Below, one piece after another: positions 17,481-63,634 of a stretch of 64,000 nt of DNA. The notes beneath the pieces were generated by a model that ran no database searches, was not told the DNA's origin, and worked only from the letters and a program-made list of their open reading frames with translations. Numbering within the stretch: the stretch's first letter is position 1; each line of letters begins with the position of its first letter. Origin of the DNA: Neobacillus cucumis (GTDB lineage: Bacteria > Bacillota > Bacilli > Bacillales_B > DSM-18226); NCBI RefSeq assembly GCF_023715505.1, contig NZ_JAMBOH010000001.1:372001-436000 (forward strand), read 5' to 3'. Position numbers and translations under genes: made by a program.

Positions 17481-17602
17481 GATAAGCAAGTATAAAAGTT
17501 TTTGACTTTGAGAATTGTCTAGCTCCAGCGTCTAGCCCTCGAGGTCACAAGACAAGCCGCCCTATATCGGGGCTGACCAAGGCGCTTGCGCTTTTCTTAT
17601 AT
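17481..17602 (-). repeat. Nested-hairpin repeat, copy 1 (short form)
   Basis: This is the only minus-strand copy. Read on the minus strand it begins ATAAGAAAAGCGCAAGCGCC and ends with AAAAACTTTTATACTTGCTT. The outer stem (GCGCC with GGCGC-like GACGC) and AGCCCC/GGGCT are kept, but the apical part is reduced to a short stretch. Its 3' end abuts the terminator of the plus-strand CDGSH gene. No coding potential. Confidence 0.85.
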
Positions 17603-17603
17603 G

Positions 17604-17939
17604 TTACATATCAGTTAACCGAATATCAGCAATATCGGGAATCCGTATTCGGTGTACCTCTTCAAAACTGTCTACCACATGAAGCTTTTGCGTTAATGGA
17701 TCCCAATAATGGATTTTACCAATTACCATTTCATAGTTTTGATTCCGATAATGGGTAATCGTAACAAACTGGTTAAACTCAATTGCTTCGGACAAGGTTT
17801 CGTTCATAAGCTCCAGCTGCTGCTCATCCATTTCCCTTTTCTGCTCGTATCGATCTTCTTTTACCCAATCCCTAAGTAATTTGACGTGTTCAGGAAGCAT
17901 CATGGACGTCCATTTGATTTTCCCGCGGTCACGAATCAT
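17604..17939 (-). CDS. yqjX: YolD-like protein, partner of the Y-family polymerase
   Basis: This small protein of about 111 residues carries the YolD domain (MIRDRGKIKWTSMMLPEHVKLLRDW at the start, then an SH3-like beta part with ITHYRNQNYEMVIGKIHYWD). Such genes nearly always follow a UvrX/YqjW-type polymerase. An upstream ATG at 17957 overlaps the polymerase stop (TAATG), and a GGGGGA lies 12 bases before it; I favour the ATG at 17939 with AAGGA 8 bases ahead, since family members start MIRDRG. The role is unknown but probably linked to translesion synthesis. Repeat copy 1 begins right after the stop. Confidence 0.85.
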   Translation of the reverse strand: MIRDRGKIKWTSMMLPEHVKLLRDWVKEDRYEQKREMDEQQLELMNETLSEAIEFNQFVTITHYRNQNYEMVIGKIHYWDPLTQKLHVVDSFEEVHRIRIPDIADIRLTDM

Positions 17940-17956
17940 AGGTATTCCTTCTTTCA

Positions 17957-19216
17957 TTACATTTTATGTCCCCCAACCAATCTCGCTCGATGTTTAGCCG
18001 TTCCGGCAGCCGTATAGGAAACAGCCCGGAGCAAAGAACCTGACCCAAAACGCCTGCGGATTGAATCCACCACATACCCGAGCTCCCGCCGCTTAGACGC
18101 CCCCATGTCAAACAAATCAAGCTGCAGTTCCCGGTCGTCGACCATATTTCCAATCGCGATTGAAATTTGCCTTACCGTTTTTCCACTATAATGTTCGTTA
18201 AATAATTCGAGACAGATACGGTAAAGCTCCATTGTTACATTTGTTGGCTGTCCGATGGTTCGGGAACGATGAAAGCCGCCGCCAAATTCATCTTGGCTAT
18301 AACCCACTCCAAGACTAATCGTTCTTCCCGCTTTCCGATGGGTACGTGCTCTTCTGGCGACCTCTTCACATATTTCTAACATGACAGACTTAATCTCTTC
18401 TTCCTCTTTATAATCTCTTAACAAAATTTGACTTTTTCCAAAGCTGATTTGCCCTTCGATAATGGGTGCTCCTAAATCAGATAGATCTACTCCCCAAGCA
18501 TGATAATAAAGCTGGTTTCCCATAATCCCGAATTTCTTTTCCAGCTTTTTTAAATCATAACGGGCTAATTGGCCAACGGTGAAAATGCCCATGCTATTTA
18601 ACGTTTTTTCAACACGTCTGCCGATCCCCCACATTTCTCGCAGTGGTGACACGTTCCAAAGTTTTGTCTGAACATCCTCATATGTCCATTCCGCCACCCC
18701 TTTTTTCTTAGCATCAAGGTCAAGGCAAAGCTTTGCTAATAACATATTCGGTCCAATTCCAATGGCAGATGGCAGCTGGAATTCCCGCTCAATATCTTTT
18801 TTTATTTTTTCGGCAATGGTACAGGCATCGCCCCACAAATGAGCGGCACCATCCACTCTAATAAAGCTTTCATCAACACTATAGACGTGGATGGCTTCTT
18901 TTGGAACATAGCGGTTAAATACACGGGTAATTTCAGTTGAAATCCGTAAATAAGTGGCCATTTTGGGCTCGACAATTTTAATCTTGGGGTCATCTGGTAT
19001 TTCAAACAGACGTGAACCCGTCTTGATGCCAAATTCCTTTTTTAAGCGAGGCGAAGCCGCAAGCACGATACTCCCTTGCCGCTTTTTCTCACCCACAACG
19101 GCTAAATAACAATTCAAAGGGTCAAGACCTTCCATAACAGCGGAACAGCTTGCATAAAAACTCTTCATGTCCACACATAAAATTTTATTTTTCGGCATTG
19201 CGCTGTAATCAATCAT
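17957..19216 (-). CDS. yqjW: Y-family DNA polymerase (YqjW/PolY2, UvrX type)
   Basis: This is a translesion polymerase of 419 residues. The palm motifs are LCVDMKSFYASC near residue 13 and YSVDESFIRVD near residue 112 with the catalytic acidic residues. Thumb (MWGIGRRVEKTLNSMGI, helix-hairpin-helix near 195) and little-finger domains follow. LQLDLF near residue 365 is a plausible beta-clamp-binding motif. GAGGGA stands 7 bases before the ATG. It forms an operon with the YolD gene and its promoter is covered by two LexA boxes. Confidence 0.93.
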   Translation of the reverse strand: MIDYSAMPKNKILCVDMKSFYASCSAVMEGLDPLNCYLAVVGEKKRQGSIVLAASPRLKKEFGIKTGSRLFEIPDDPKIKIVEPKMATYLRISTEITRVFNRYVPKEAIHVYSVDESFIRVDGAAHLWGDACTIAEKIKKDIEREFQLPSAIGIGPNMLLAKLCLDLDAKKKGVAEWTYEDVQTKLWNVSPLREMWGIGRRVEKTLNSMGIFTVGQLARYDLKKLEKKFGIMGNQLYYHAWGVDLSDLGAPIIEGQISFGKSQILLRDYKEEEEIKSVMLEICEEVARRARTHRKAGRTISLGVGYSQDEFGGGFHRSRTIGQPTNVTMELYRICLELFNEHYSGKTVRQISIAIGNMVDDRELQLDLFDMGASKRRELGYVVDSIRRRFGSGSLLRAVSYTAAGTAKHRARLVGGHKM

Positions 19217-19241
19217 GACTTTTCCCTCACAATTTAAGTAT

Positions 19242-19255
19242 CGAACACTCGTTCT
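19242..19255 (-). promoter_or_regulatory. LexA (SOS) box 2 of yqjW
   Basis: CGAAC-ACTC-GTTCT matches the Bacillus SOS box CGAACNNNNGTTCG at 9 of 10 defined positions. It lies between the yqjW -10 and the ribosome site. Confidence 0.8.
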
Positions 19256-62835: not shown

Positions 62836-62850
62836 GGTACTTCCCCCCAT

Positions 62851-63300
62851 TTAAAGCATGTCAAGGAACCGGTTTGTAATGACCTCAGTGTCTTCCGGTG
62901 TTCGACAAATAATTAACATGGTATCATCACCACAAATTGTTCCCAGTATTTCATCCCAGTCAAGGTTATCAATTAATGCACCTATTGCCATAGCGTTACC
63001 AGGCAGGCATTTCATGACGAGTAAATGACCCGCGGAATCAATTCTGACAAAAGCGTCAATAAGCGATCGTTTTAATTTTTGCAAAGGGTTAAAGCGTTGG
63101 TCCGCAGGCAAGCTGTATTTATAGCGTCCATCTGTTAATGGAACTTTAACCAAGTGCAATTCTTTAATATCTCTAGAGACGGTTGCCTGCGTTACATTAT
63201 ATCCTGCACTCTTTAATTCATCTACTAATTCATCTTGCGTCTCAATATCGTTGCTGGCAATAATTTCTCTTATTTTAATATGGCGTTGACCTTTATTCAT
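62851..63300 (-). CDS. ahrC: Arginine repressor/activator AhrC
   Basis: AhrC (ArgR) is the hexameric arginine-responsive regulator. The 149-residue protein has an N-terminal winged helix (RHIKIREIIASNDIETQDEL to VTQATVSRDIKEL, residues 6-48) and a C-terminal hexamerisation/arginine-binding domain with the GTICGDDTMLIICRT motif near 120-134, where paired acidic residues bind arginine. GAGGTG precedes the ATG. It sits between tlyA and recN as in B. subtilis. A matching operator is seen upstream of artP. Confidence 0.95.
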   Translation of the reverse strand: MNKGQRHIKIREIIASNDIETQDELVDELKSAGYNVTQATVSRDIKELHLVKVPLTDGRYKYSLPADQRFNPLQKLKRSLIDAFVRIDSAGHLLVMKCLPGNAMAIGALIDNLDWDEILGTICGDDTMLIICRTPEDTEVITNRFLDML

Positions 63301-63314
63301 TTTTTCACCTCGTT

Positions 63315-63474
63315 ATAAGAAAAGCGCAAGCGCCTTGGTCAGCCCCGACAAGCATAAGACGAGCCGGCCGAAAGGTTGCTTTTTAACCTTTTGGACGGAT
63401 TGACTTATGACCTCGAGGGGCTAGGCGCTGGAGCTAGACATTTCTCAAAGTCAAAAACTTTTATACTTTCTTAT
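63315..63474 (+). repeat. Nested-hairpin repeat, copy 8 (standard form)
   Basis: This 160-bp copy has the full standard architecture: ATAAGAAAAGCGCAAGCGCC, AGCCCC, CATAAG, CCGAAAGGTT/AACCTTTTGG, CTTATG, GAGGGGCT, GGCGCTGGAGCT and the tail ending CTTTCTTAT. It begins 14 bases upstream of the ahrC start codon and is followed after 3 bases by copy 9. Confidence 0.92.
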
Positions 63475-63477
63475 CTC

Positions 63478-63634
63478 ATAAGAAAAGCGCAAGCGCCTTG
63501 GTCACCCCCGACAAGCATAAGACAAGCCGGCCGAAAGGTTAATTTTAACCTTTTGGACGAGGCTGTAGACCATCGAGGGGCTAGGCACTGGAGCTAGACA
63601 ATTCTCAAAGTTAAAAGCTTTTTACTTTTGAATC
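63478..63634 (+). repeat. Nested-hairpin repeat, copy 9 (tandem with copy 8)
   Basis: This 157-bp copy begins ATAAGAAAAGCGCAAGCGCC directly after the end of copy 8. Its apical stem is altered (CCGAAAGGTTA, AATTT loop, TAACCTTTTGG) and the right arm reads GCTGTAGACCATCGAGGGGC as in copies 5 and 6, so CTTATG pairing is lost. The region 63635-63730 that follows is AT-rich and holds nothing I can name. Confidence 0.9.

Follow-up and report, generated by a model that had tools for sequence, protein, structure and literature searches.

The 64,000-nucleotide stretch of Neobacillus cucumis DNA analysed here (contig NZ_JAMBOH010000001.1, positions 372,001 to 436,000; hereafter the window) carries nine intergenic copies of a hairpin element that belongs to a large repeat family, present in many Bacillaceae genomes at up to about a hundred copies each and often landing just past the terminators of genes. 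The element is usually about 120 to 350 nt long and folds end to end into one rod; elements of this size are too short to encode a transposase. We are highly confident that the family is mobile, that it seeks out terminators, that it is oriented by the replication fork and that it nests within itself. The best overall explanation, which we favour tentatively as something a little short of an even chance, is that a non-autonomous hairpin element is joined in trans into single strands exposed by replication at terminators.

The nested stems described in a first-pass annotation of the window are present in the standard copies, and their conservation was assessed in an alignment of 54 such copies, 53 hand-picked from 82 non-redundant sequences together with one more copy from the window. 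Two-sided changes that preserve pairing occur at 25 of the 35 predicted pairs, and 94.6% of cells are paired; whole stems can be exchanged, as where AGCCCC/GGGGCT is replaced by AGGGGC/GCCCCT, and by eye the loop is near-constant (GYKYTTT) despite the changing stem. None of 500 shuffles reached the observed covariation score, percentage of paired cells or two-sided counts, and 30 of 500 reached the number of further pair types, while sliding the partner columns by 1 to 3 positions lowers pairing to 33-50%. Covariation in this alignment supports a conserved structure, and changes in pairing are largely compensatory, contrary to the outcome that the annotation had named as telling against it. 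Judged from the alignment, the hairpin is under selection.

All nine copies were found where they had originally been placed, and chance is excluded as the origin of the repeats, since the 26-nt core of the left arm occurs seven times at up to three mismatches, whereas 100 dinucleotide shuffles average 0.00 occurrences. Predicted folding energies of the copies, taken with 12 nt on each side, range from -37 to -124 kcal/mol in a window with 39.9% G+C. Nor are the copies confined to the window, which the annotation had held would count against its proposal: both pattern scans and a covariance-model scan of other genomes reject such a restriction. The left-end pattern matched at least 120 stretches of genome contigs, by record title nearly all from Bacillaceae and their relatives (Mesobacillus, Neobacillus, Metabacillus, Rossellomorea, Lederbergia, Litchfieldia, Oceanobacillus and others), the exception among the matches listed being an assembly titled Chryseobacterium sp. 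ISL-80, with three stretches. At up to two mismatches the right-end pattern matched 56 of 61 Neobacillus genomes, at 0 to 104 places per genome, and the same pattern read backwards matched once over all 61. Our covariance model R1 (E value of 1e-5 or better, with at most 12 candidates scored in each genome) matched 214 of 299 sampled genomes of the order; it matched 3 of 299 in a phylum-wide sample, these being the centre genome, G002, and two genomes also in the order list. Carriage by phages or plasmids was considered and set aside, there being 0 phage records and a single plasmid record (690 kb, linear, with the match at its very start), and an exact-pattern search of viral contigs gave one match. 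The family is thus widespread in the order, yet the window copies have no match in Rfam, and the titles and abstract openings surveyed, which include few subscription papers, hold no description of the hairpin family and no match to its left-end string.

That the element is mobile and non-autonomous, as the first-pass annotation suggested, is supported by empty sites at all window locations and by near-identical copies in three chromosomes. Orthologous 65-kb regions from five relatives were compared with the window, and each of its eight sites (one is occupied by a tandem pair) lacks the element in one or more of them; at some sites relatives carry another element or the comparison did not align. 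At copies 2, 4, 6 and 7 the joins are clean: the element begins with ATAAG, or in copy 4 with CTACG, ends with CTTATCTC or a variant, and has no target duplication of more than 2 bp. A 2-bp overlap is possible at the copy 2 join, the length of an A-run differs at that of copy 6, and the other sites are less clear. Among the complete chromosomes, nearest-neighbour identity reaches at least 0.99 for 7 of 67 copies in G054, 13 of 43 in G055 and 4 of 33 in G006, where the set includes two neighbours from a single tandem array. The left flanks of 18 near-identical pairs agree at 11-18 of 40 places and apparently belong to unrelated loci. Two identical long forms of 238 nt lie at far-apart places in G006, which indicates that composite forms move as units.

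Insertion favours a particular kind of site. Taking as plus the strand on which the element was originally read, the sequence shows that its right end often sits immediately 3' of an intrinsic terminator's T-tract, the terminator being read on the opposite strand. On the minus strand, T makes up 64-94% of bases at positions -13 to -7 upstream of TARGAAAKTATAAAA, in a profile built from the 85 unique sequences among 93 motif hits beside an element, with 40 hits elsewhere excluded. A custom script that looks for an A-run with an inverted repeat found an opposite-strand terminator at the right flank of 64 of 121 copies with the tail that we call A, 43 of 56 with tail B and 25 of 187 without a recognised tail. 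The corresponding counts at the left flank are 3 of 121, 0 of 56 and 2 of 187, and 86 of 6000 random places gave a terminator; an earlier, smaller set of copies gave a like picture. Many copies therefore lie away from any terminator visible to the script. The neighbouring genes were called as open reading frames of at least 100 aa, and of 160 copies five fell inside such a frame and another 23 had a neighbour on one side only. In 106 of the 132 scored cases the right neighbour is directed towards the element, and 75 of the 132 copies are antisense to both neighbours.

Orientation with respect to replication was examined in the complete chromosomes G006, G054 and G055, where dnaA was located and the terminus taken as opposite; genes were open reading frames of 90 aa, and the copies scored were those outside any frame with a called gene on either side. 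Of 145 scored copies, 120 point against the fork and 25 the other way. The excess is seen between convergent genes (47 vs 8, p 8e-8), between divergent genes (9 vs 1), around pairs of genes transcribed head-on to the fork (10 vs 1) and around co-directional pairs (54 vs 15). In G006 a first detector gave 25 vs 6 overall and 11 vs 1 in convergent gaps, and a second gave 25 vs 4 and 9 vs 1. Gene direction as the sole cause of the orientation is rejected by the convergent gaps and the head-on pairs. The plain bias is 58 vs 12 in G054 (70 places at 0-1 mismatches; p 0.08 against 75% gene co-orientation) and 40 vs 10 in G055 (50 listed of 85 places; p 0.26), which does not exceed gene co-orientation, and so it is the split by gene arrangement that carries the claim. 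Among the places listed in G054, those at 66-186 kb are all on the plus strand and are followed by a minus-strand place at 251 kb, with dnaA at 236 kb. If the inserted strand is taken to be that carrying the T-tract, the 120 of 145 copies that point against the fork place this strand mostly on the lagging-strand template, the strand on which IS608 and ISDra2 act (PMC6006769).

The two ends of the element are linked. Tail A (..TTTTATACTTTCTTATCT) is coupled to a 5' AAG or TAG (111 vs 2) and tail B (..TTTTATAATTTCCTAAAC) to 5' ends of the GAAC type (41 vs 5), with 20 further tailed copies having neither type of 5' end; this linkage across more than 100 nt indicates that the whole element is one unit. 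In copies with tail A, ATAAGAAAAG and CTTTTATACTTTCTTAT form inverted ends; by eye, those with tail B or no tail lack a terminal inverted repeat. No tail was recognised in 149 of 274 copies. Tail B includes TTATCCACA, which resembles a DnaA box and is exact in 28 of 44 copies and present at up to one mismatch in 39 of 44, against 0 of 81 with tail A; its reverse complement was never found in tail-B copies. Read on the minus strand, the element finishes with its rod followed by TTTTCTTAT, and a minus-strand tag RTCY, read as RGAY after GGAGCT, occurs in 253 of 274 copies.

Growth by the insertion of hairpin units, the remaining proposal of the first-pass annotation, is supported by a nested insertion at 36089 in G006, where one element lies within another that is uninterrupted in G005, and by matches of the covariance model to the cassettes inside window copies 5, 6 and 7 (34606-34715, 35078-35187 and 36946-37057). 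These cassettes look like elements inside elements. The Bacillaceae-1 RNA (RF01690) is one insert among several in the family, and the window copies do not match it; it forms a 5' cassette, above the gathering score, in six copies from 5 of the 14 loci scanned (two in L047 and one each in L057, L019, L098 and L104, from Mesobacillus selenatarsenatis and Bacillus sp. ISL-37 and ISL-45). It is present in 77 of 150 genomes of the order, with at least 31 scored copies in 16 of the 150. Bacillaceae-1 RNA resembles a small mobile cassette more than an individual small RNA (sRNA) gene, and the Rfam 'sRNA' can be reinterpreted to the extent that some of its matches are inserts in mobile hairpins. Its discoverers were uncertain of its strand, and its reverse complement resembles CsrA sites (PMC4333381). 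It was also seen within several other kinds of hairpin repeat (L301, L305, L306, L299 and L312; 14 of 19 loci viewed).

To account for these features, we propose that an enzyme supplied in trans would join one strand of the element into single-stranded DNA exposed by replication, on the lagging-strand template, at a site made up of a hairpin and a T-tract. Since on that strand the element itself ends in a hairpin followed by TTTTCTTAT, every insertion would create a new target, and head-to-tail arrays would be the expected consequence; spacer-free arrays are present in the window and in L067, and a closely similar one in L064. A Y1/HUH single-strand transposase is the likeliest class of enzyme, and mobilisation as single-stranded DNA by such an enzyme is the leading candidate mechanism, a possibility that we would not yet call probable. 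All 13 Neobacillus genomes tested contain Y1_Tnp. Across the order, 176 genomes have both Y1 and the element, 38 the element only, 46 Y1 only and 39 neither.

A number of observations weigh against this proposal. The resulting association (Y1_Tnp in 176 of 214 element-bearing genomes and 46 of 85 others) takes no account of kinship and pools IS200 with single-copy Y1 genes, and 19 of 136 element-rich genomes have no Y1 match. A Y1 gene adjoining the element was sought in 30 Y1 loci (of 32 matches), none of which holds a copy. The four Y1 loci examined closely (L241, L244, L246 and L251) have different palindromes nearby, GGGGACTGTCCCC or GGTGACAGGCACC; beside genes resembling those for RAYT, these look like a separate Bacillaceae REP family. 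For these reasons Y1 is the leading candidate only. The fetched loci, 2.46 Mb in all, contained no autonomous relative combining the same ends with tnpA (the search did not extend to whole genomes). On the side of the target, window copies 5 and 9 lie, by eye, away from terminators, and a fixed short target or tetranucleotide next to the ends, sought in 85 tailed copies, was not found, there being only the T-rich tract. Wobble pairing is a further difficulty. Of 150 matches, the best 124 were aligned to the model and give 120 distinct rows, in which G-U pairs on the plus strand outnumber A-C pairs by 283 to 24 (column shuffles of the same alignment give 437 and 216), or by 178 to 23 when the fixed loop-closing pair is omitted, with 18 pairs leaning towards G-U and 4 towards A-C. 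A MAFFT alignment gives 127 to 17, the structure in both alignments coming from programs that favour G-U. The excess of G-U over A-C would make the plus strand the one whose folding is selected, whereas folding of the lagging-strand template should produce such an excess on the other strand.

The wobble excess falls on exactly the strand expected if the family were a bacterial SINE-like (short interspersed element-like) repeat moved through RNA. In this scenario, which we think unlikely, the plus strand is transcribed and folded, the 3' end of the RNA becomes the right end at the T-tract, and reverse transcription is primed by the 3'-OH of a DNA strand that ends in the T-tract, such as the nascent leading strand. 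The geometry of a T-tract followed by cDNA fits, as does the fork orientation, and group IIC introns provide an instance of insertion after terminators (PMC3240598). However, tolerance of G-U is no proof of RNA when alignment programs favour it, and RVT_1 was matched in only 8 of the 13 Neobacillus genomes, those unmatched (G054, G006, G002, G001 and G010) including a chromosome, G054, with 104 pattern matches and near-identical copies. A predicted version of this route, in which plus-strand RNA would be copied at forks from a strand 3' end past the T-tract by a reverse transcriptase outside RVT_1, the copies becoming landing sites in turn, strikes us as rather more doubtful. The lack of an RVT_1 match in five of the 13 element-bearing genomes also weakens an origin from group II introns that depends on a reverse transcriptase. 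A non-autonomous group IIC derivative moved by the intron's enzyme would share the target geometry, downstream of intrinsic terminators (PMC3240598), but Rfam matched no group II intron in either the window or the 14 other loci scanned and no copy was found in 30 reverse transcriptase loci (of 63 matches), and we consider such a derivative decidedly improbable.

Improbable too, if marginally less so, is a classical miniature inverted-repeat transposable element (MITE), whose short terminal inverted repeats would be recognised by a mobilising DDE transposase. The inverted ends ATAAGAAAAG/CTTTTATACTTTCTTAT and the linkage between ends would suit it, but these inverted ends are confined to tail-A copies, clean joins show no duplication beyond 2 bp, and a fork-dependent orientation would be unexpected. 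Finally, strong covariation, the position at gene ends and the occurrence of an Rfam sRNA inside some copies might indicate a structured RNA or terminator-like regulatory family retained by the host for its function. Against this, presence varies among relatives at every window site, pattern counts range from 0 to 104 within one genus, tandem and nested copies exist, and 75 of the 132 scored copies are antisense to both neighbours; retention for host function is accordingly the least credible of these explanations and, in our view, very improbable.

The proposed insertion of a hairpin into replication-exposed single strands invites comparison with several known systems. REP/REPIN sequences, with their TnpAREP/RAYT proteins, involve single-stranded DNA chemistry (PMC8266576); like the present family they are high-copy intergenic hairpins, carry a short tag on the 5' side of the hairpin, which here is a minus-strand RTCY, and have Y1 genes in the same genomes. 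They differ in that our elements are covarying rods of 120-350 nt with a T-tract target, linked ends and self-nesting. A REPtron, moreover, has its tnpAREP gene flanked by repeats and a GTAG-type tetranucleotide 5' of the hairpin, while here the 30 Y1 loci are without copies and the tag is RTCY. Elements derived from IS200/IS605, of which PATEs are non-autonomous examples, share the hairpins and, as at the clean joins of copies 2, 4, 6 and 7, the lack of target duplication. Insertion into the lagging-strand template is matched by the 120 vs 25 bias, with wobble pointing to the other strand; the fixed target of 4-5 nt is replaced by what is apparently a hairpin and T-tract, and an autonomous relative with tnpA is missing from the fetched loci. 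Group IIC introns such as B.h.I1 recognise hairpins in single-stranded DNA (PMC3240598) and insert after intrinsic terminators, as does the hairpin family, if not in every copy; unlike them, it shows no ribozyme-domain match in Rfam across the window and 14 loci and has near-identical copies in genomes unmatched by RVT_1. A DDE-type MITE would combine inverted repeats with target duplication, a combination that we did not observe.

Among other modular repeats, the pneumococcal BOX elements have variable inner modules between fixed ends, fold strongly, insert into one another and have been judged parasitic (PMC3049150). Comparing by description only, the hairpin family is similarly modular, folded and self-inserting, and is set apart from BOX and SPRITE by its one continuous covarying rod and its terminator and fork rules. 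Also by description, it resembles the bcr1-bcr18 repeats in being mobile in Bacillaceae, but these 100-400 bp elements are tied to TTTAT motifs and reported to be specific to the B. cereus group (PMC6542083). The family unites landing at terminators with an orientation set by the fork, a pairing that we did not meet in the literature passages surveyed. If this is true, its copies would constitute a natural record of single-strand exposure at terminators.

The window copies illustrate most of these forms. Copy 1 (17480..17600) lies on the minus strand, which corrects the original reading; it has tail A and a short rod, and it directly follows the T-tract of a terminator-like hairpin on the plus strand (17446..17479, identified from sequence) that is present without the element in four of the five relatives, the fifth being unaligned. 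The remaining copies are on the plus strand, and the hairpins beside them, recognised by eye, are on the minus strand. Copy 2 (22849..23100) has tail A and a 5' cassette, with a clean empty site in G005 and G006, and adjoins the T-tract of a hairpin (23102..23137) belonging to a short-chain dehydrogenase gene. Copy 3 has tail B, with TTATCCACA at 29512-29520, and adjoins the T-tract of a hairpin (29547..29590) of a Y-family polymerase gene. Copy 4 (30905..31066), with tail A, adjoins that of an M20 peptidase gene (31069..31098), and its site, like that of copy 5, is empty in all five relatives compared. Copies 5 (34464..34794), 6 (34911..35264) and 7 (36854..37136) are the long forms with an inner second element; the right ends of copies 6 and 7 lie by the terminators of a YkuD-domain gene (35270..35312) and an ABC-ATPase gene (37145..37172). 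Copy 8 (63315..63477), with tail A, and copy 9 (63478..63635), whose right end lacks a strong terminator by eye, form a head-to-tail tandem without spacer; copy 8, the first member, lies upstream of the arginine repressor gene. The ArgR protein of the window has 99% identity in the closely related Neobacillus genomes G002, G011 and G007.

The claim that all nine copies share the same ends is too strong. The copy at 29369 (copy 3) has a different 5' end, AGAAC, and a different 3' tail, GTTATCCACA..TTTTATAATTTTCTAAAC, its real span being 29364 to about 29546. By eye, the copies at 30905 and 34464 start with CTACG and GTAAG respectively, and the tails of those at 34464, 34911 and 63478 are altered. 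There is also a tenth copy, decayed, on the plus strand at 16005..16062 (29.4 bits with model R1), where G011, G006 and G004 have orthologous full copies.

Further variants were noted elsewhere. A variant right arm, CTGGCTAGGCGCTGGAGCT, is common at many places of G054, and at L116, L098 and L013 a similar arm, AACTGGCTAGGCGCTGGAGCT, is paired with another 3' cassette (..GCAAGATACTC..). In L381 of G054 (3164-4586, plus strand), element ends 1422 nt apart flank an open reading frame of about 236 aa, apparently secreted and by eye no transposase; this pair of ends is either a gene-carrying form or the result of a later insertion. Lastly, short elements in L061 (7574, minus strand) and L157 (220, plus strand) have a common 5' tail, TAGGAAAGTATAAAA, after a T-tract and a different body ending ..CTTGGCGAATGCCAAGTTTTTCT, and are perhaps a second family mobilised by the same enzyme.

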